Assembly: GCA_947443645.1 (NCBI GenBank)
Contig: CANEXF010000009.1
Location: 1 to 64,000 of the forward strand
Reading direction: 5' to 3'
Source: Comamonadaceae bacterium
GTDB lineage: Bacteria > Pseudomonadota > Gammaproteobacteria > Burkholderiales > Burkholderiaceae_C
Length of the DNA stretch: 64,000 nucleotides
Below the pieces are notes generated by a model, which saw nothing but the letters and a program-made list of their open reading frames with translations, was not told the origin of the DNA and ran no database searches. Positions 24,937 through 52,539 of this stretch are shown here, one piece after another; position 1 is the stretch's first letter; each line of letters starts with the position of its first letter. The position numbers and the translations under genes are program-made.

Positions 24937-25533
24937 ATGACTCAATCGACTTCAGCTTCGGTCTCAGCCTTGCAGGGCTTGGGCTCGCTGGTATTTAGCC
25001 ACATGGGCTTTTACGTGCGCGACCTGGAGCGCATGGCACGCTTTTACAAGGAAGTGATGTGCTTTACTGAAACCGACCGGGGTGACCTGGGCACGGTGCA
25101 ACTGGTGTTTTTAAGCCGGGACCCGACGGAACACCACCAGGTGGTGCTGGCGACCGGCAGGCCCGAGGCGCTGGGCTTTAGCGTGATCAACCAGATCTCT
25201 TTTCGCGTGCCAGACCTGGCCACGCTTCGGCTGGTGCGCGACCGCGTCGCCGCCGATCCCGACGTGACCGATCTGCTGTGCGCCACACATGGCAATGCTG
25301 TGTCGATTTACTTCCGCGACCCCGAAGGCAATCGCCTGGAAGTGTTTCTGGACACGCCCTGGTACTGCGAGCAACCGCTGCGCGAACCGATCAGCCTGGA
25401 CCAGCCGGACGAAGCCATCATGGCCAGAGCCGAGGCGATCGCGCGCAGTCGGCCGCGCTTTCAGTCGCGTGCCGAATGGCAGGCCAGGATGGCGCGCCTG
25501 ATGGGCGTGACAAACCCGGGGACCAAGGCATGA
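24937..25533 (+). CDS. short VOC-family (glyoxalase/type I extradiol-fold) protein
   Basis: SHMGFYVRDLERMARFYKEVM; HHQVVLATGRP; GNRLEVFLDTPWY. Confidence 0.9.
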   Translation: MTQSTSASVSALQGLGSLVFSHMGFYVRDLERMARFYKEVMCFTETDRGDLGTVQLVFLSRDPTEHHQVVLATGRPEALGFSVINQISFRVPDLATLRLVRDRVAADPDVTDLLCATHGNAVSIYFRDPEGNRLEVFLDTPWYCEQPLREPISLDQPDEAIMARAEAIARSRPRFQSRAEWQARMARLMGVTNPGTKA

Positions 25534-27038
25534 GCACCACGGCTGACATGAGCGCCCAGCTGTTTGACGTTGCCATCATCGGCTACGGCCCGGCCGGCGT
25601 CACCTTGGCCAACCTGCTGGGTCAGGCGGGCCTGTCGGTCTGCGTGCTTGAAAAAGAAGCGGCCATCTACCCGCTGCCGCGCGCGATTCACTTTGACGGT
25701 GAGGTGATGCGGATTTTCCAGTCGGCCGGACTGCGACCGCAGATCGAAGCCATCTCGCGGCCAGGCCTCAAGGGCATGCACTTTCTCAATGCCAGCGGCG
25801 AAACCCTCTTGATTCGCGGCGGAACCAACGCCCATGGCCCACACGGCTGCGCCAACAATTACTACTTTCACCAGCCTGAGCTGGAGCAGGTGCTGCGTGA
25901 TGGCGTGAAGCGGTTTGCACAGGTCCGGGTTTGTCTGGAGCACGAGGTCACCCAGATCACGCAAACACCCGAGCAGGTGCAACTGGAAGTGCGCGATCTG
26001 CAGGCCGGCAGCAGCGGTCAGGTACGCGCACGCTATGTGGTCGGCTGCGACGGCGCACGTTCACTGGTACGCAAGGAAATTGGCAGCCCCATGAAAGACC
26101 TGGGTCTGCATCAACCCTGGCTGGTGTTTGACGTGATCCTCAAAAAGGGCGCGCCGGCCCTGCCCGACCACACCGTGCAGCACTGCGACCCGGCCCGACC
26201 GATGACGTATTGCAACGTGACCGGAAACCGGCGCCGCTGGGAAATCATGCTGATGCCCGGCGATGACCCGGCCACACTGGTGCAGCCCGAGACCCTGTGG
26301 AAAATGGTCAGCCGCTGGCTCACGCCAGCACAGGCCGACATTGAACGCGCGGTGATCTACACCTTTCATTCGGTGATCGCCGAAGGCTGGCGTCAGGGCC
26401 GCCTGCTGCTGGCCGGTGATGCGGCGCACCAGACGCCGCCATTTCTCGGCCAGGGCATGTGCGCCGCGCTACGCGATGCCGCCAACCTGAGCTGGAAGCT
26501 TCAGGCGGTCCTGGCCGGCCGTGCGCCCGACAGCTTGCTGGACAGCTATGAGTCAGAGCGTTCGCCCCATGTCAATGAATTTATCGAACTGGCAGTGCGG
26601 CTGGGCGACATCATCCAGACCACAGACCCGGAGTTGGCGCGCGAACGTGACCAGCGCTTCAAGGCCGGGCAGCCCGAGATTTTCGAGTTCCCCTCGCCGC
26701 GGCTGGGCCCTGGCCTGCTCCTTGGCGATACCGCACCAGTAGGCCAGCCCTTTCCCCAGCCCATACTGGCAGACGGCCAGCTGCTGGACACCTTGCTGGG
26801 CGAACGCTTTGCGGTCATTGGGCGCCAAGCGCTGCTGTCTAGCGTGACAGCGGCCACGCGACAGCTCTGGCAGCAGGCTGATGTGGTGCAGCTGCCAGCC
26901 GCCGACCCCAGCTTGTCGGCCTGGCTCGACGAGCAGCATGTCGACGCGGTGGTGCTCAGGCCGGACCGCTACATTATGGGCATGGCTACTTCGCCGAAAG
27001 AGCTGGAAACAATCACAGCCCGCATGCCTTGCCTCTAA
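25530..27038 (+). CDS. FAD-dependent monooxygenase, MhpA-like
   Basis: GYGPAGVTLANLLGQAGLSVCVLEKE; GCDGARSLVR; LLAGDAAHQTPPFLGQGMCAALRDAANLSWKL; ATGA overlap with VOC gene. Confidence 0.9.
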   Translation: MSTTADMSAQLFDVAIIGYGPAGVTLANLLGQAGLSVCVLEKEAAIYPLPRAIHFDGEVMRIFQSAGLRPQIEAISRPGLKGMHFLNASGETLLIRGGTNAHGPHGCANNYYFHQPELEQVLRDGVKRFAQVRVCLEHEVTQITQTPEQVQLEVRDLQAGSSGQVRARYVVGCDGARSLVRKEIGSPMKDLGLHQPWLVFDVILKKGAPALPDHTVQHCDPARPMTYCNVTGNRRRWEIMLMPGDDPATLVQPETLWKMVSRWLTPAQADIERAVIYTFHSVIAEGWRQGRLLLAGDAAHQTPPFLGQGMCAALRDAANLSWKLQAVLAGRAPDSLLDSYESERSPHVNEFIELAVRLGDIIQTTDPELARERDQRFKAGQPEIFEFPSPRLGPGLLLGDTAPVGQPFPQPILADGQLLDTLLGERFAVIGRQALLSSVTAATRQLWQQADVVQLPAADPSLSAWLDEQHVDAVVLRPDRYIMGMATSPKELETITARMPCL

Positions 27039-43130: not shown

Positions 43131-44114
43131 TCAACGGCAAAGGGGATGAAACAACTCACTCACCTCGTACTGCCGCGGTATCAGGCCTTGCTGATACGAC
43201 CATCGAATTTGTGTCTTGAGAATCTCCCTATTTTCATCAAAACCGTAAGGCCAGAAATCAGTACCCATCAACGCCTGGGTTTCTTCGTGTTCTGCAGTAA
43301 GCCAAGGCAACATCACAGGATGCGCTTGATGCGTTGACAAGCGCGACTGAGCAATATCCTTCGCTTTTTTGAATCCGTCCATGAGCGATGCAACCACGCC
43401 CTGATGGCTTGCAAGCACGTCCTTTCGGACAGCCATCAGGTGCATGATTGGAAACCGTTTAGTCCGCTGGAAGTAATCTTTTTCAGCCACACGCCAGTCC
43501 GGGAAAAGACGCGCAATTTTTTTATCTTGAATAAATTCGATAGGCGGCTTGTAGGCTATGAGTGCATCAATCTCGCCGTCCAACAGCAAGGACGTCAATG
43601 TTCGCCCGACCACACCCTTGATCTTCACGCGGTCTTTAGGCCAGTTTCGGTCATCAATGGATTCCCGTTCAACATGATCAACATCGCCGACCACCCATTC
43701 GCTCGCTTCTGGCTCAAGCCCGTACTCGTCAAGCAAGAACCCTCGCACAACCAGAGACGCAGTGTTTGAGTATTCTCGACATCCGATTCGTTTCCGGCGA
43801 AGGTCCCCAGGGCATTGAATGCTGCGATCCGATCGAACATAAATAGCCGAGTGACGAAAGGATCTGGAGGGGAATATGGGCAATGCCACGTAAGGACATT
43901 CGTCGCGGGACGTCGCTATCAAATAGTTGCTAAATGAGAGCTCCGTCACATCGAATGTTGCTTCGTGAAAAGCTCGGGCGAAGATTTCTTCCAAATCGCC
44001 GGTGATTACATTGGCATCAAATCCGGGAAAAACAACGGAGCCATCAATGAGCGGGCGGGTTCTGTCATAGTCACCGACGGCAACTTGCAAACTAGGATTA
44101 TTCAATTTTGGCAC
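43131..44114 (-). CDS. 4,5-dihydroxyphthalate decarboxylase-like SBP-fold protein, no signal peptide
   Basis: LQVAVGDYDRTRPLIDGSV; DVTELSFSNYLIATSR; YPWL-like VMLPWLTAEHEETQALMGTDFWPYG. Confidence 0.83.
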   Translation of the reverse strand: MPKLNNPSLQVAVGDYDRTRPLIDGSVVFPGFDANVITGDLEEIFARAFHEATFDVTELSFSNYLIATSRDECPYVALPIFPSRSFRHSAIYVRSDRSIQCPGDLRRKRIGCREYSNTASLVVRGFLLDEYGLEPEASEWVVGDVDHVERESIDDRNWPKDRVKIKGVVGRTLTSLLLDGEIDALIAYKPPIEFIQDKKIARLFPDWRVAEKDYFQRTKRFPIMHLMAVRKDVLASHQGVVASLMDGFKKAKDIAQSRLSTHQAHPVMLPWLTAEHEETQALMGTDFWPYGFDENREILKTQIRWSYQQGLIPRQYEVSELFHPLCR

Positions 44115-45469: not shown

Positions 45470-46480
45470 TCACTCCATTTCAATACGCCTGTCGCTGACC
45501 ACTTTGCGCAGATTACTGATGTCTCGCTCGACACGGGCACGGAACTCACCAGGTGAAGACGCGGCGGGGCTGCCGCCAAAGTCAATGAGTTTCTGGCGCA
45601 CCTCAGGCTGCTCCAGCACTGCCCTCAACTCCCTGTTCAGACGCTCAACAATCACTGCCGGCGTTCCTACAGGTGCGGCGATTCCAAGCCAGGACTCGAA
45701 CACCACCGATGGGAAAAAGTCCGCCACAGCGGGCACCCCGGGCAAAGTACTTGCGCCGCGCGGTGAGGTCACGGCGATTGCACGCACGCGCTGGTCCTTC
45801 AGCAAGGACGCTGTGAGGGTCATGGTGTCCACCATGACATCCACGCGGCCAGCCAGCAACTCCGTCAATGGGCCAGTGCCGCCCTTGAACGGTACATGGA
45901 TAACATCTATGCCGGCCTCGGAAACAATCCATTCCGCCACCAGGTGCATGGCCGTGCCAACACCCACAGACGAATAACTGTACTTTCCAGGCTCGGACTT
46001 GGCGCGCTGCAGAAAATCGGGAAACGATTTGATGGGCGAGCCCGGTGCAACCGTCAGCGCCAGTGGGTAAGTGGTGATGGTGCTCACCCAGAGAAAATCA
46101 TTGACGGGATGAAACGGCAACTTCTTTTTGATGGCTGCGCTGCTGGCGTGACCACTAGGCAGCAAGATCAGGGTGTAGCCATCTGGGGCAGAACGGGTCA
46201 GCATTTCTGCGGCGATATTGCCACCCGCACCAGCCTTGTTGTCGACCACCACGCTTTGTCCCAGTCTATCTCCCAGGGACTTCGCGATAAGCCTGGCCAC
46301 CAGATCGGAGCCGCCGCCAGCGGGAAAGCCCAGCAGCAATCGAACCGGCTTGTTGGGCCACACGTCATCGCCAGACGCGGCGATTGCAGAAACGCTCAGG
46401 CCGGCTAGCCCCAGGGCCAAGAACATGCGTAAAAAGCTCAGTCGCAGGCGTGAAGAGTTGAGGGTTGGCAAAGCGGGCAT
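45470..46480 (-). CDS. Bug/TTT-family periplasmic receptor
   Basis: Signal peptide; WPNKPVRLLLGFPAGGGSDLVARLI; VVDNKAGAGGNIAAEMLTRSAPDGYT; start placed at ATG 46480. Confidence 0.92.
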   Translation of the reverse strand: MPALPTLNSSRLRLSFLRMFLALGLAGLSVSAIAASGDDVWPNKPVRLLLGFPAGGGSDLVARLIAKSLGDRLGQSVVVDNKAGAGGNIAAEMLTRSAPDGYTLILLPSGHASSAAIKKKLPFHPVNDFLWVSTITTYPLALTVAPGSPIKSFPDFLQRAKSEPGKYSYSSVGVGTAMHLVAEWIVSEAGIDVIHVPFKGGTGPLTELLAGRVDVMVDTMTLTASLLKDQRVRAIAVTSPRGASTLPGVPAVADFFPSVVFESWLGIAAPVGTPAVIVERLNRELRAVLEQPEVRQKLIDFGGSPAASSPGEFRARVERDISNLRKVVSDRRIEME

Positions 46481-46526: not shown

Positions 46527-47102
46527 TCAGGGCGGGCTGGCATAAGCCATGCGAACGGCCATTTGAGCGCGCCATTGTTCACGGCTCTGAAAGTTTGGCC
46601 TGCTGCGCGCGATTGCTTCAGCACGCGCCATGACAGTGCTGTCTGGCTGGTCAAGGTCAATTGACTCGCGCAAAGGCTGCTCGCAATACCACGGGGTGTC
46701 CATGAAGACCTCGATGCGGTTGCCCTCGGGGTCCCGAAAATAAATGGATACGGCGTTGCCGTGGGTCGCACACAGCAACTCGGACACATCGGGTTCTGCT
46801 GCAACCTTGTCTCGCATGGCGCGCAAGCTTGCAAGATCAGGCACACGAAAGGATATCTGGTTGATCACGCTAAAGCTCAGGTCTGCGGGCCTGCCGCTGG
46901 CCAGCACCACCTGATGATGTTCTGTCGGGTCACGGCTTAGAAAAACCAGTTGTACCGCACCCAGGTCACCTCTGTCGGTTTCGGTAAAGCACATCACCTC
47001 GGTATAAAAACGCGCCATACGCTCCAGGTCACAAACGTAAAAGCCCATGTGGCTGAACACCAAAGACGTTTGTTGATTGAGTAACTGAGACGCTTGGGTC
47101 AT
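46527..47102 (-). CDS. short VOC-family protein, close paralog of 24937-25533
   Basis: SHMGFYVCDLERMARFYTEVMCFTETDRGDLGAVQLVFLSRDPTEHHQVVLASGRP nearly identical to paralog. Confidence 0.92.
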   Translation of the reverse strand: MTQASQLLNQQTSLVFSHMGFYVCDLERMARFYTEVMCFTETDRGDLGAVQLVFLSRDPTEHHQVVLASGRPADLSFSVINQISFRVPDLASLRAMRDKVAAEPDVSELLCATHGNAVSIYFRDPEGNRIEVFMDTPWYCEQPLRESIDLDQPDSTVMARAEAIARSRPNFQSREQWRAQMAVRMAYASPP

Positions 47103-47143
47103 GACAGATGGTCGCTTGTTTCAATCTGGCTATTGTTACGCGT

Positions 47144-48469
47144 CTAGACGGGCCAATCCCTGGCGGGAAAAATTCGACCACGGCATTCGCCAAACCCGAT
47201 GGATACGGCGCCCGCATGCGCTGCTCGGGCCATGAGGATGATTTCGTCGCCGTCTTCGAGCGCAAGGCGAAACTCGCCGCCACCCAATGGCAATGGGTCA
47301 GCGCCGGCATTGGTCAACTCGGTGATGCAAGCGCGCGTCAGGTTGCTCTCGCCAGAAATAGTACCGCTACCGATCAGATCACCGGCGCGCAGATTGCAGC
47401 CATTGCTGGCGTGGTGGGTCAGCATCTGGCCGAAGGTCCAGTAAAGATTTTTCAAATGCGTCTGGGTGATGCGCACCGCAGGCCGCTGCTCACTGCGTTG
47501 AGCCGAGGTTGAAATCCAGGCTTCAAGACCAATATCGATTCCGCCTTCGGCCTGATCTTCATCGCCGCTGAGATACGGCAGCAAAGCCGGATCGGCAGCC
47601 GCGCGCGGCGGTGCAGGCAAACGAAATGGCAACAAGGCTTCCGTGGTGACGATCCAGGGTGAAATCGAAGAGACAAAGTTCTTGCCCAGAAAGGGGCCAA
47701 GCACCTGCTCCCACCACTGTATGCTTTTGGCAGACCAGTCATTGAGCAAGCAGTATCCGAAAATATAGTCCTGCACCTCTCGGATCGCCACGGGCTCGCT
47801 CAAAGGATTGCCGCGAGCCACGAATGCGGCAAGCTCGAGTTCAAAATCAAGCATGGGCGCAGGACCAAAGCAAACCTCACCCTGACTATTTTTGTACTGC
47901 CCGTTTGGACGAATCACCTTTGCGCCACTGGCACGTATCGACGACGCTCGCCCATGGTAAGCCACTGGCAAGGACTTGAAAGCCGGCGGAAGCGGGTCTT
48001 TCAGCCCTTTGAATCGGCCATGCCGCTCCGTGTGGTGCAGCGAAGTCAGAAAGTCGGTGTAGTCGCCAATATCGCAGGGCAGCTCCATGACAACATCATC
48101 CATCGCACGCAAAATCAAGTGCTCAGATTCGCGGGCGAGCAAAAGCCGTGGGCTGTCACTGCGCAACAGGTCTGACAATTGCGCGCGCAATGCAGACGCG
48201 TAGTGATTACCCAAGGCCATCAGCCCGTTAAGCTTGCCCCCTTCGCTTGCGCGCACTGCGACAGCGGCATCGCCATCAAGGAGCCCGGCATGCAGTGCTT
48301 GCTGCAGATCGACGACCTTGTCGCCTATGGCTACCCCGGCGCGTTTTTCTCCATCAATACTGAAGACGCCCAGCGGCAGATTCTGAATCGGGAAATCACA
48401 GCACGGCTGGTTTGCAGATACGACCCACGAACGTCGCAAGGGATCATGTGTGGCATTTAATTTTTTCAT
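47144..48469 (-). CDS. fumarylacetoacetase
   Basis: DYTDFLTSLHHTERHGRFKG; PVAYHGRASSIRASG; MLDFELELAAFV; LNDWSAKSIQWWEQVLGPFLGKNF; start moved to ATG at 48469. Confidence 0.93.
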   Translation of the reverse strand: MKKLNATHDPLRRSWVVSANQPCCDFPIQNLPLGVFSIDGEKRAGVAIGDKVVDLQQALHAGLLDGDAAVAVRASEGGKLNGLMALGNHYASALRAQLSDLLRSDSPRLLLARESEHLILRAMDDVVMELPCDIGDYTDFLTSLHHTERHGRFKGLKDPLPPAFKSLPVAYHGRASSIRASGAKVIRPNGQYKNSQGEVCFGPAPMLDFELELAAFVARGNPLSEPVAIREVQDYIFGYCLLNDWSAKSIQWWEQVLGPFLGKNFVSSISPWIVTTEALLPFRLPAPPRAAADPALLPYLSGDEDQAEGGIDIGLEAWISTSAQRSEQRPAVRITQTHLKNLYWTFGQMLTHHASNGCNLRAGDLIGSGTISGESNLTRACITELTNAGADPLPLGGGEFRLALEDGDEIILMARAAHAGAVSIGFGECRGRIFPARDWPV

Positions 48470-49038
48470 TTTGAAGACTTGAACCCGCTGATCGGTACTG
48501 ACTTTTCGCGGCTCCATTGATCAAGTGCCTGACGAGCGCGCGCCTTGAAGCCTTGATGCTGCTCGCTTGTTCCCGTAGGCACTGTGAACTCAAGACGAAA
48601 TCCGTTGGGGTCAAAAAAATAAATTGATTTCACAAAATGGTGGTCAGTGATGCCCACGACGTCTATGCCCGCGGCCTCCAGGCGCAACTTCATGGCCGCA
48701 AGCGCCTCGAGCGATTCAAGGCGTAGCGCGATATGGTTTACCCAGGCCGGCGTATTCGCAGAAGGTTGGGCAATAGCGCCGTCGCCCAAATCAAAAAAGG
48801 CGATGCATGAACCATCGGCCATCTCAAAAAACAGATGTACATAAGGGCAATATTCACCGGTGCTGGGCACATGGTCAAGCCGTATCAGGTGAACCAGGGG
48901 GAGCCCCAAAAGGTCTTCGTAGAAAGCGCGCGTTTCTTCAGCATCGCGGCAACGCCACGCAAAATGGTGCAAACCCAATACTGTCGGTGCCGGTGACTTA
49001 CCAGCTTCATTTTTAGCGGTAGCAACCTGGGTAGTCAA
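48466..49038 (-). CDS. VOC-family protein (second type)
   Basis: GLHHFAWRCRDAEETRAFYEDLLGLPL; VNHIALRL; YFFDPNGFRLEFTVPT. Confidence 0.88.
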   Translation of the reverse strand: MTTQVATAKNEAGKSPAPTVLGLHHFAWRCRDAEETRAFYEDLLGLPLVHLIRLDHVPSTGEYCPYVHLFFEMADGSCIAFFDLGDGAIAQPSANTPAWVNHIALRLESLEALAAMKLRLEAAGIDVVGITDHHFVKSIYFFDPNGFRLEFTVPTGTSEQHQGFKARARQALDQWSREKSVPISGFKSSK

Positions 49039-49040
49039 AG

Positions 49041-50228
49041 TCAGAGCTCAACCGCATCGATGTCATATTTGAACAGCCATTCATAGCGCTCCTTGACACG
49101 CGCTTCATTCCACTCGCGGCTCACGTAATCGGCCGCGCCTTCCGCATTCGCCAACGCCGGGTTGTGAAATCTCTTGGTGTTGGCAGCAGAGCCCAGCACA
49201 ACGCGCGCGGTCCGCTCCTTGCGCGCCTCTTCATAACGTTCAAAGGCCAGCGTCGGCGTATCTGAATACTTCTCCAGGGCACGCGCCAGCATGTAGCCGT
49301 CCTCAATCGCCATCGCGGCACCTTGTGCAAGAAAGGGCAAGGTCGGATGGCAGGCGTCACCAAGCAGCGTCACGCGGTCACGACTCCACTTGGGCATGGG
49401 GTCTCGCACCTTCAGCACCCATTTGAAAGGCGTCTTGATGGCCTTGATCAGCGTGTGCACATCGTCGTGCCAACCTTTGAAATCGTTCAGGCACTCTTCA
49501 TGAGAGCCTTTCTCCGACCACGACTCGACATCCCAGCGATTGCCTTCCACAGCACCGACAAAATTAACGAGCTCACCATTGCGCAAAGGGTACTGAACGA
49601 CGTGAGCGCCAGGGCCTACCCAATTCGAGCCATAGGGCTCGCGCATGTGTTCTGGCAACGAAGACGCCTCAACGACACCGCGCCAGGCCATCACGCCGGA
49701 ATAACGCGGCGCATCCGGTCCGAACAGCGCCTCCCTGATTCTCGAGTGAACGCCGTCGGCGCCTATGACCAGATCCGATTCAATGCTTTCCCCGCTCCCG
49801 GTCTGGACGCTGACGCCGCCCGCGTGTTGCGTCAGGCCACCGACCTTGACGCTCAAGCGGATCGCATCGCCCTTCAAACGGCGAACGCCATCGGCAAGAA
49901 CCTGGAGAAGATCTGCGCGATGCACCGTTAAATACGGGTAGCCATAGGCCTCTCGTGAGACGGTTCCCAGATCAAACAAAGGCCATATCTGCCCGGTATT
50001 CCATAGCCGGACACGCTTGCCCGCCGGCTCCGAGGCAATACTTTCAAGCGCATCACCAAGCCCGAGCCGAAACAGAACACCTGTTGCATTCGGACCCAGT
50101 TGTACGCCGGCACCAATCTCCTTGAGCTCAGCCGCCTGCTCCAAAATAGTGACGTCGAAGCCTTTTTTGAGAAGTGCCAGGCCAGCCGTCAAACCACCCA
50201 GACCGGCGCCAATAATTGTTATTTTCAT
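49041..50228 (-). CDS. FAD-dependent monooxygenase (salicylate/3-hydroxybenzoate hydroxylase-like)
   Basis: IIGAGLGGLTAGLALLKKGFDVTILEQ; VIGADGVHSRIREALF; VTLLGDACHPTLPFLAQGAAMAIEDGYMLARAL. Confidence 0.92.
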   Translation of the reverse strand: MKITIIGAGLGGLTAGLALLKKGFDVTILEQAAELKEIGAGVQLGPNATGVLFRLGLGDALESIASEPAGKRVRLWNTGQIWPLFDLGTVSREAYGYPYLTVHRADLLQVLADGVRRLKGDAIRLSVKVGGLTQHAGGVSVQTGSGESIESDLVIGADGVHSRIREALFGPDAPRYSGVMAWRGVVEASSLPEHMREPYGSNWVGPGAHVVQYPLRNGELVNFVGAVEGNRWDVESWSEKGSHEECLNDFKGWHDDVHTLIKAIKTPFKWVLKVRDPMPKWSRDRVTLLGDACHPTLPFLAQGAAMAIEDGYMLARALEKYSDTPTLAFERYEEARKERTARVVLGSAANTKRFHNPALANAEGAADYVSREWNEARVKERYEWLFKYDIDAVEL

Positions 50229-50276: not shown

Positions 50277-51251
50277 TCAATCGACCGTAGGTTTGACTTT
50301 GTTAACCAGCCGCGTCCATTTGGCAAGCTCGGACTCAATGTCCTGTCTGAATTTTTCAGGCGAGCTTTTCACCGGCTCAAGACCGGTCGCTGCAATTTCA
50401 GCCTGCAAGGTCACATCGTTTTCAGCGGTCCGCATCGCATCGGACAGTATCTTCAAGGTCTCTGGCGGCGTGTTGGCCGGTGCCACCAGGCCGACCCAGG
50501 AATAGGCCTCAAAGTCACCGCCTATGACCTCCCTGACAGTAGGCACGTTGGGCAGCTGCGGGGAGCGCGCTCGACCTGCGGTGGCAAGCACCTTGAGTCG
50601 TTCAGTTTTGAGGAAGGGACTGACCGTCGGTATGGTTTCGAACACCATGTCGATCTGGCCGCCCAGCAGATCATTGAGCGCAGGCATGCCGCCCTTGTAG
50701 GGCACGTGCAGCATGTCTATGTTCGCTTCGTTCTTGAACCACTCGCCCACCAGATGGTTGATGGAGCCGCTACCGGCGGAACCGTAAGAAAGTTTTTTCT
50801 CACGTCCGGAAGCGATGAATTCCTTGAGCGTGTTGGCTTTCATGTCACCACGGCCGGCCAGGATGATGGGGCTTCGCGCAACCATGCCCAGTGGGGCAAA
50901 CGAGGTCAGGGGCGCATAAGCGAGTTTCGGATACAAGGTCGGCGCGACACCTAGGCTGCTGGTACTGCCCCACAAAAGCGTGTAGCCGTCGGCTACAGAG
51001 CGCGCAACATAAGTAGACCCCGTGGTGCCACCAGCGCCCGGTCTGTTTTCAATGACCACCGCCTGTTTGAGTATGCCGCCCAAGGACTTTCCAACCAGAC
51101 GCGCGCTGCTGTCGGTGGGCCCACCCGGAGGAAAGGGCACAACGATGGTGATGGCATGCGTGGGAAAAGTCTGGGCGCCCGCTGTGGACAGAAAGCAAAA
51201 TGCCGCAACCACGAATCCGATGCGGTAAGAAAAATTGGAGCTATGTTTCAT
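50277..51251 (-). CDS. Bug/TTT-family periplasmic receptor
   Basis: Signal peptide; FPTHAITIVVPFPPGGPTDSSARLV; VIENRPGAGGTTGSTYVARSVADGYT. Confidence 0.93.
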   Translation of the reverse strand: MKHSSNFSYRIGFVVAAFCFLSTAGAQTFPTHAITIVVPFPPGGPTDSSARLVGKSLGGILKQAVVIENRPGAGGTTGSTYVARSVADGYTLLWGSTSSLGVAPTLYPKLAYAPLTSFAPLGMVARSPIILAGRGDMKANTLKEFIASGREKKLSYGSAGSGSINHLVGEWFKNEANIDMLHVPYKGGMPALNDLLGGQIDMVFETIPTVSPFLKTERLKVLATAGRARSPQLPNVPTVREVIGGDFEAYSWVGLVAPANTPPETLKILSDAMRTAENDVTLQAEIAATGLEPVKSSPEKFRQDIESELAKWTRLVNKVKPTVD

Positions 51252-51570: not shown

Positions 51571-52539
51571 ATGAATATTTCACTCAGACAGCTCACTGCT
51601 TTTCTTGGCGTGGCCAGTTCTTGCAGTTTCACCAAAACAGCAGAGCGTCTGCACCTGAGCCAAGCAGCGCTATCAGCCATCATTCGCGAGCTCGAATCCC
51701 AGTTGCAGTGCCGATTGCTCAATCGGACCACGCGTACGGTCAGCCTGACTGAAGCGGGCAAGTCATTCCTACCAGTTGCCACGCAAGTCATCAATGCCAT
51801 TGAATGCTCGGCATTGGAGTTGGGCAAGATAGGTCGCGAAGAGCAGCGCGTCTTGCGCGTAGGCGTGACGCCACATATTGCGGTGAGTCTGATGCCGGCG
51901 GTGTTGAGGCAATACGCCTTGCTGGCTCCGTCGGTCAACGTGCAAGTCACAGACAGCGCCCCCGGCGATCTGTTGCACATGGTTGAGGCGGGCGATCTCG
52001 ACGTTGCTTATGGTGCGTTTTTCGTAAAGGCTTCAGGCATAGACAGGGTGCCCATTTTCCCGACCTGTCTGGTGGTCGTGTCACCTCTGGATGAGGTGGC
52101 CGCGTGGTCAGACTTTGAAAAATCTGGCGTCACCTGGCATTGTCTGCAGGATGTCCCGCTGATCGCGCTGCCCAAGGACAACCCGATTCAGCGCCTGATT
52201 GAAGAGAACCTGGCACGGGAGATGGTCCAGACAGGCAAGCGCACTGAAGTCGGACATCTGGAAACCGCAATCGCGATGGCCGAGGCCGGATTTGGTGTTG
52301 CCATCGTGCCTTCTTTATCCGAGGCCATTTGCCAGAGATTTCGCGTTCGTCTAAGCGTGATCAGGCCAATTGTAGAGCTCTCGTTCTATTGCATCACCAA
52401 GTCAGGACGAGGCAATATTGAAAGCGTAGGCGTGTTCTCCGAGGCCTTCACAAAAATCGTCAGCAACGCTCAAGGAAGTTCTTTGCGAAAGACCAAGGGC
52501 GTCAAGCGAAGCACAAGGGCGCAGGCCATCGCTGAATAG
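51571..52539 (+). CDS. LysR-family transcriptional regulator
   Basis: MNISLRQLTAFLGVASSCSFTKTAERLHLSQAALSAIIRELESQLQCRLLNRTTRTVSLTEAG. Confidence 0.95.
   Translation: MNISLRQLTAFLGVASSCSFTKTAERLHLSQAALSAIIRELESQLQCRLLNRTTRTVSLTEAGKSFLPVATQVINAIECSALELGKIGREEQRVLRVGVTPHIAVSLMPAVLRQYALLAPSVNVQVTDSAPGDLLHMVEAGDLDVAYGAFFVKASGIDRVPIFPTCLVVVSPLDEVAAWSDFEKSGVTWHCLQDVPLIALPKDNPIQRLIEENLAREMVQTGKRTEVGHLETAIAMAEAGFGVAIVPSLSEAICQRFRVRLSVIRPIVELSFYCITKSGRGNIESVGVFSEAFTKIVSNAQGSSLRKTKGVKRSTRAQAIAE

Follow-up and report, generated by a model that had tools for sequence, protein, structure and literature searches.

A putative VOC-fold ring-cleaving dioxygenase linked to a fumarylacetoacetase-family hydrolase in a Comamonadaceae operon

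The SALH-VOC2-FAH gene set

Examination of a 64,000-nucleotide stretch of a Comamonadaceae bacterium genome (contig CANEXF010000009.1, positions 1-64000, here termed the window) reveals four minus-strand open reading frames (ORFs) at 46527-50228. In the order of transcription these code for a FAD monooxygenase (SALH), a VOC-fold protein (VOC2), a fumarylacetoacetase-family hydrolase (FAH) and a second VOC-fold protein (VOC1b), which are the kinds of gene that the initial annotation had recognized there. We consider it fairly likely that they belong to a LysR-controlled operon, TctC-SALH-VOC2-FAH-VOC1b, that degrades a substituted aromatic acid and in which VOC2 opens the ring. This route would parallel the hydroxylase-dioxygenase-FAH core of homogentisate degradation but is probably not the homogentisate pathway itself. 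The proposal draws on observed gene content, homology, residue conservation, linkage and a phylogenetic profile. In annotation, FAH without hmgA reads as a broken pathway; here it is instead a pointer to a family of VOC-fold dioxygenases, and the FAH is probably not orphaned, with the adjoining VOC2 serving as its dioxygenase partner.

Both VOC proteins match only PF00903 above the Pfam cut-offs. The closest solved relative of VOC2 is PDB 9u42 (phmmer E=2.5e-38; 6e-77 with the family profile), titled 'Homogentisate 1,2-Dioxygenase from Acinetobacter in Complex with Zn ion' in the structure library. VOC2 is 40-42% identical to this VOC-type homogentisate 1,2-dioxygenase, and a Foldseek comparison of the VOC2 model likewise ranked 9u42 first (E=1.5e-14). 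The triad H25/H102/E150, equivalent to the metal-binding residues of extradiol dioxygenases, is invariant in 45 of 45 relatives, as are H68 and H133. These features suggest that VOC2 is likely to be the ring-opening dioxygenase of the operon and a paralogue of the VOC-type homogentisate enzyme. The two proteins have in common a single-domain VOC fold, a His-His-Glu site and an accompanying full-length FAH-family hydrolase; they differ in that the window VOC2 would be fed by a FAD monooxygenase and the Acinetobacter enzyme by HPPD. A tree of the VOC2 family consists of two clades, each supported 100/100: one contains the Acinetobacter enzyme, HPPD-linked genes and a gene on C8 of the window genome, and the other contains the window VOC2 and a gene on C5. 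Members of this latter, sister clade occur in many catabolic operons, where their annotation reads simply 'VOC family protein'; they represent candidates for undescribed ring-cleavage routes.

The adjoining FAH scores above the curated fumarylacetoacetase cut-off (TIGR01266, 430.9 versus 375.3 bits) and contains both FAH domains (PF09298 and PF01557). In mouse numbering, the catalytic and metal-binding residues D126, H133, E199, E201, D233, K253, T350 and E364 are all kept, and the substrate residues are changed (Y128L, R142K, R237K and deletion of Y244); the roles of these residues we take to be those they have in the mouse FAH structures. The altered pocket is common to all five SALH-linked FAHs (window, three Paraburkholderia and G355). 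By residue alignment it is not seen in the C8-type FAHs or in Acinetobacter FahA, which, unlike the window FAH, keeps all four canonical substrate residues. The four pocket changes point to a FAH substrate that differs from fumarylacetoacetate and, taken together with the separate, fully supported sister clade of VOC2, suggest that the substrate of VOC2 and FAH is probably other than homogentisate.

The gene order SALH-VOC2-FAH is conserved in Paraburkholderia and in G355, a member of another genus. The Paraburkholderia version is a plasmid operon, SALH-VOC2-FAH-alpha/beta hydrolase (AP028202, NZ_CP012748 and NZ_AP028998), in which these three genes are arranged as in the window (about 70, 73-76 and 63-64% identity, respectively) and the FAH has the same pocket signature. 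Unlike the window operon it is devoid of VOC1 and, in AP028202 and NZ_CP012748, is followed by alpha/beta hydrolase and xanthine-dehydrogenase-family genes; UbiD is encoded downstream and, as annotated in AP028202, UbiX upstream. In Paraburkholderia F2 (L093, 7711-8951) the SALH gene lies in two ORFs, reflecting either a broken gene or a sequencing error, and its counterparts in L176 and L177 are uninterrupted. In the window, the SALH stop is 2 bp from the VOC2 start, the VOC2 stop and the likely start of FAH share the sequence ATGA (48469-48466), and gaps of 41 bp and 48 bp separate FAH from VOC1b and TctC from SALH. Given the overlap and the other gaps of 2-48 bp, we read these genes as one operon; translation of FAH probably begins at the ATG at 48469 rather than at 48517. 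The TctC-SALH order also recurs in L178, L179 and L182, with LysR relatives (39-42% identity) nearby in L179 and L182, and regulation of the window operon by its divergent LysR-type gene is probable.

SALH and the MhpA-like monooxygenase of a further catabolic cluster in the window (module 1, Table 1) had been described as unrelated; both belong to PF01494, as different subfamilies, and the hydrolases of the two modules, previously assigned to different families, are both of the FAH superfamily (PF01557). Nor was a salicylate hydroxylase-like identity supported for SALH, which falls below the salicylate 1-monooxygenase cut-off (TIGR03219, 180.4 versus 446 bits) and also below that of its best NCBIfam match, 3-hydroxybenzoate 6-monooxygenase (NF006021, 304.6 versus 459 bits). 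Its best solved relative is 6-hydroxynicotinate 3-monooxygenase (PDB 8uiq, E=2e-69), and decarboxylating hydroxylases also figure among its best solved relatives. Going by its family, SALH would hydroxylate the ring and so form a diol of the hydroquinone or catechol type. VOC2, as a metal-dependent His-His-Glu dioxygenase, could then cleave the ring beside a hydroxyl, yielding a 1,3-diketo acid, and the FAH-fold hydrolase, with its catalytic residues kept, would split the 1,3-diketone; VOC1b may perform a further step that is not necessarily ring cleavage.

The same logic of a FAD monooxygenase and a single-domain VOC dioxygenase is described in Comamonadaceae (PMC11069340) for flavonoid A-ring meta-cleavage of the fde/ifc type (fde for naringenin in Herbaspirillum, ifc for isoflavones in Variovorax), in which the hydroxylase FdeE/IfcA acts before the 'glyoxalase' dioxygenase FdeC/IfcB. 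Sister-clade VOC2 members are, moreover, encoded with a FAD monooxygenase and an alpha/beta hydrolase in legume-nodule Bosea and in Neorhizobium. However, the likeness of FdeC/IfcB to VOC2 is one of description, a Rieske partner (FdeD) or cupin (IfcD) is described there and neither is present among the window operon ORFs, and those descriptions mention no full-length FAH; we regard it as very unlikely that the window operon is of this type. The riboflavin, acetosyringone and 4-hydroxypyridine pathways, each of which combines an oxygenase with ring opening, were set aside, since the SALH-VOC-FAH set is found in none of them.

Candidate homogentisate dioxygenases in the window genome and beyond

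The initial annotation had remarked on the absence of a homogentisate dioxygenase from the window. Cupin hmgA is in fact missing from the whole 99.97%-complete genome, with no copy outside the window either; a hidden cupin encoded near FAH was likewise rejected, as none was present among the window ORFs or in the genome search. The genome does carry HPPD (C15) and MaiA (C22), and on C8 it has a MarR-FAD monooxygenase-VOC-FAH cluster (about 75600-80170; L087 5664-10169), whose VOC protein is 65% identical to that of Acinetobacter and 46% identical to the window VOC2. With HPPD and MaiA present without hmgA, and the closer VOC protein at C8, the C8 cluster is the probable homogentisate pathway of this genome and the window operon would be something else. 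Like the latter, it brings together a hydroxylase, a VOC dioxygenase and FAH, but its FAH keeps the canonical pocket residues and its monooxygenase, of about 600 aa, is of another subfamily than SALH. With the canonical cupin HmgA-MaiA-FAH pathway the window operon has in common the logic of a dioxygenase followed by FAH, although in place of the cupin HmgA, which the genome lacks, a VOC protein occupies the position of the dioxygenase. The window genome has four full-length FAH homologues (C9, C8, C12 and C49), of which those on C12 and C49 show other pocket changes and have no VOC neighbour in view.

It could be argued that the window operon is a second homogentisate pathway, with VOC2 as the homogentisate dioxygenase and FAH as an ordinary fumarylacetoacetase, given the homology of VOC2 to 9u42, the FAH score above the TIGR01266 cut-off and the presence of HPPD and MaiA in the genome. 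This is rendered improbable by the sister-clade position of VOC2, by the closer homogentisate-type VOC-FAH pair already at C8 and by the changed pocket in 5/5 SALH-linked FAHs, and we continue to favor a different aromatic acid as the substrate of the operon.

In Acinetobacter the VOC2 relative sits in a fahA-maiA-VOC-IclR-hppD or fahA-maiA-VOC arrangement, and a search of a 3.66 Mb A. baumannii record found no cupin hmgA. A 2020 study reported hmgA as missing in A. baumannii and judged a domain-bearing gene between hmgC and hmgR to be inactive, calling the gene at that position a distant homologue without dioxygenase activity (PMC7646211). According to a 2022 paper, transposon loss of a gene there called 'hmgA' leads to pyomelanin and is cured by complementation (PMC9431530). 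The 'hmgA' reference coordinates in PMC11945678, compared with L187, cover 633 bp and run into hmgB, as would be expected of maiA in the fahA-maiA-VOC layout rather than of a homogentisate dioxygenase; gene naming across the Acinetobacter papers may be mixed up.

A phylogenetic profile was derived from a single sample of 300 genomes of Burkholderiales; HPPD is present in 82 of them. Cupin hmgA is present in 41 of these 82 and only a distant cupin match in 12, with the other 29 being devoid of any cupin homogentisate dioxygenase. A VOC2-family gene is found in all 29 and, at the same strength, in 8 of the 53 other HPPD-bearing genomes (Fisher p=3e-15, relatedness ignored); by their coordinates, VOC and HPPD lie within about 230 bp of each other in nine genomes. 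The VOC-fold dioxygenase family appears to replace the cupin HmgA in 29/82 sampled HPPD-bearing Burkholderiales and in Acinetobacter. As for the 12 genomes with a distant match, a gene that matches cupin HmgA only weakly (positions about 125-425) occurs near HPPD, for example in G032:C23, G077:C1, G120:C2 and G253:C1, which suggests that these genomes have a third type of homogentisate dioxygenase, a distant cupin.

Several points weigh against the proposed role of the operon. The structure 9u42 is a zinc structure and its activity assignment stands on the deposited title, and the window VOC2 lies outside the homogentisate clade, in the sister clade (100/100), several members of which adjoin an alpha/beta hydrolase instead of FAH. 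The genomes of the profile are related, so that the Fisher p overstates their independence, and four of the 29 (G049, G093, G133 and G204) carry only a sister-clade VOC, with the result that the profile does not cleanly separate the two clades. Finally, for the activities of the window proteins, their reactions, their substrate, their regulation and the VOC1 step we rely on inference.

VOC1, a second conserved VOC family

The initial annotation noted a near-identical VOC protein in both modules, and VOC1b is indeed 80% identical over 183 aa to VOC1a of module 1. Together they belong to another conserved family of VOC proteins, one associated with FAD monooxygenases and with FAA hydrolases. An alignment of 82 VOC1 proteins showed that H62-H63-Q64, Q82, H114 and E131 are present in 82/82 and H18 in 81/82. 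The invariant Q82 aligns with the second metal histidine of XylE (H214) and with H102 of VOC2, and in place of the extradiol 2-His-1-carboxylate triad the aligned proteins have H18/Q82/E131. The VOC1 profile matches catechol dioxygenase domains (1mpy, 4.6e-10), and the structural matches of the VOC1b AlphaFold2 model (pLDDT 95) are a mixture of glyoxalase I, FosX and BphC.

The VOC1 neighborhood was surveyed in 74 genome-collection loci and further plasmid and whole-genome loci, with counts covering the 57 loci that have at least 5 kb on both sides and partners scored within 5 kb. A FAD monooxygenase is encoded beside VOC1 in 49 of these, a short FAA hydrolase in 51, IclR in 50 and TctC in 53; a full-length FAH or VOC2 occurs near it in none (0/57). 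Thus, the co-occurrence put forward for VOC, FAD monooxygenase and FAH is widespread beyond the two window loci as regards the monooxygenase and an FAA hydrolase, but, in genomes other than that of the window, did not hold for full-length FAH. SALH-linked VOC1s appear at three separate points in the VOC1 tree, which groups VOC1b with MhpA-linked VOC1s; on these grounds the possibility of VOC1b simply travelling with SALH by descent was rejected. In a broader order-wide sample (40-61% identity) only the closer relatives (54% and up) have a monooxygenase next to them, and FAA hydrolase or TctC neighbors persist in several more distant ones. In the genome G137 a gene for a VOC2-type protein with the His-His-Glu site comes immediately before VOC1 and an MhpA-like hydroxylase, so the pairing of VOC1 with the VOC2 type is not unique to the window.

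The recurrence of VOC1 had been taken to mean that it performs the core step. It could accordingly be the core ring-cleaving enzyme of both modules, with VOC2 and FAH as accessories: it is the sole candidate dioxygenase in the MhpA-VOC1-IclR-FAAH and VOC1-SALH-TctC loci, and there is the above-mentioned profile match to catechol dioxygenase domains. This appears doubtful in light of the universal glutamine at the second metal histidine, the Paraburkholderia SALH-VOC2-FAH operons without VOC1, and the two operons (window and G137) in which VOC1 accompanies a VOC2-type enzyme. The core step of the window operon is better given to VOC2, and the step of VOC1, with its glutamine and its operons shared with VOC2, is probably different; a distinct, possibly isomerase, step is at least as likely for VOC1 as ring cleavage. 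More specifically, one might tentatively place VOC1 after ring cleavage and ahead of the FAH-type hydrolase, as an isomerase or tautomerase of glyoxalase fold in the position that MaiA has in the homogentisate pathway; such a role would be compatible with ring opening by VOC2. Its non-dioxygenase metal set (H18, Q82, E131) plus HHQ62-64, the presence of glyoxalase I and FosX among its best structural matches, its pairing with an FAA hydrolase without a monooxygenase (L076, L078, L084, L102 and C23 of the window genome) and its co-occurrence with VOC2 are consistent with such a role. On the other hand, the isomerase activity is itself an inference, and at the MhpA-VOC1-FAAH loci no other dioxygenase is in view, so that the ring would need to be opened elsewhere. 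The combined proposition that two divergent VOC proteins replace HmgA and MaiA, with VOC1 as an H-Q-E isomerase, in a pathway parallel to the homogentisate route, is unlikely as a whole.

A VOC1-FAA hydrolase-DUF1185 set is conserved in Burkholderiales and Rhodococcus (L089 in G000:C23, L102 in Rhodococcus opacus, L233 and L234), often with an alcohol dehydrogenase and with no monooxygenase. The contig of L080 is assigned to a Thermoflexus (Chloroflexota) metagenome-assembled genome, but its VOC1 is nearly identical to betaproteobacterial versions, and it likely represents contamination of that assembly.

Genomic setting of the operon

Table 1. Genes of the proposed operon, its flanks and module 1 (window coordinates)
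Feature	Coordinates	Strand	Basis and remarks
SALH-like group A FAD monooxygenase, 395 aa	49041..50228	-	PF01494; proposed ring hydroxylase
VOC2, single-domain VOC protein, 190 aa	48466..49038	-	9u42 homology, site, tree; proposed ring-cleaving dioxygenase
FAH, full-length fumarylacetoacetase-family C-C hydrolase, 457 aa	47144..48517	-	TIGR01266
VOC1b, VOC-fold protein, 191 aa	46527..47102	-	VOC1a identity, residue set, AlphaFold2 model
TctC/Bug-type periplasmic substrate-binding protein, first gene of the operon	50277..51251	-	
Divergent LysR-type regulator, probable operon regulator	51571..52539	+	PF00126 and PF03466
Second TctC/Bug-type substrate-binding protein	45470..46480	-	PF03401; ORF listed from 46846, likely ATG 46480
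VOC1a, module 1 paralogue overlapping the MhpA-like hydroxylase	24937..25533	+	80% identity to VOC1b
MhpA-like FAD monooxygenase, module 1	25527..27038	+	NF004829, 591 bits versus cut-off 390

With its start at 46480, the second TctC gene begins 46 bp after VOC1b. The window as a whole (1-64000) is a dense catabolic region, with at least eight TctC/Bug-type binding proteins among its catabolic genes (at 1757, 4566, 16019, 21197, 23778, 44098, 45470 and 50277). For a further substrate-binding-protein-like gene at 43131-44114 no score reaches a cut-off (30 bits for the SsuA family); on visual inspection its product is similar to 4,5-dihydroxyphthalate decarboxylase-type proteins, and the gene might join the same catabolic block.

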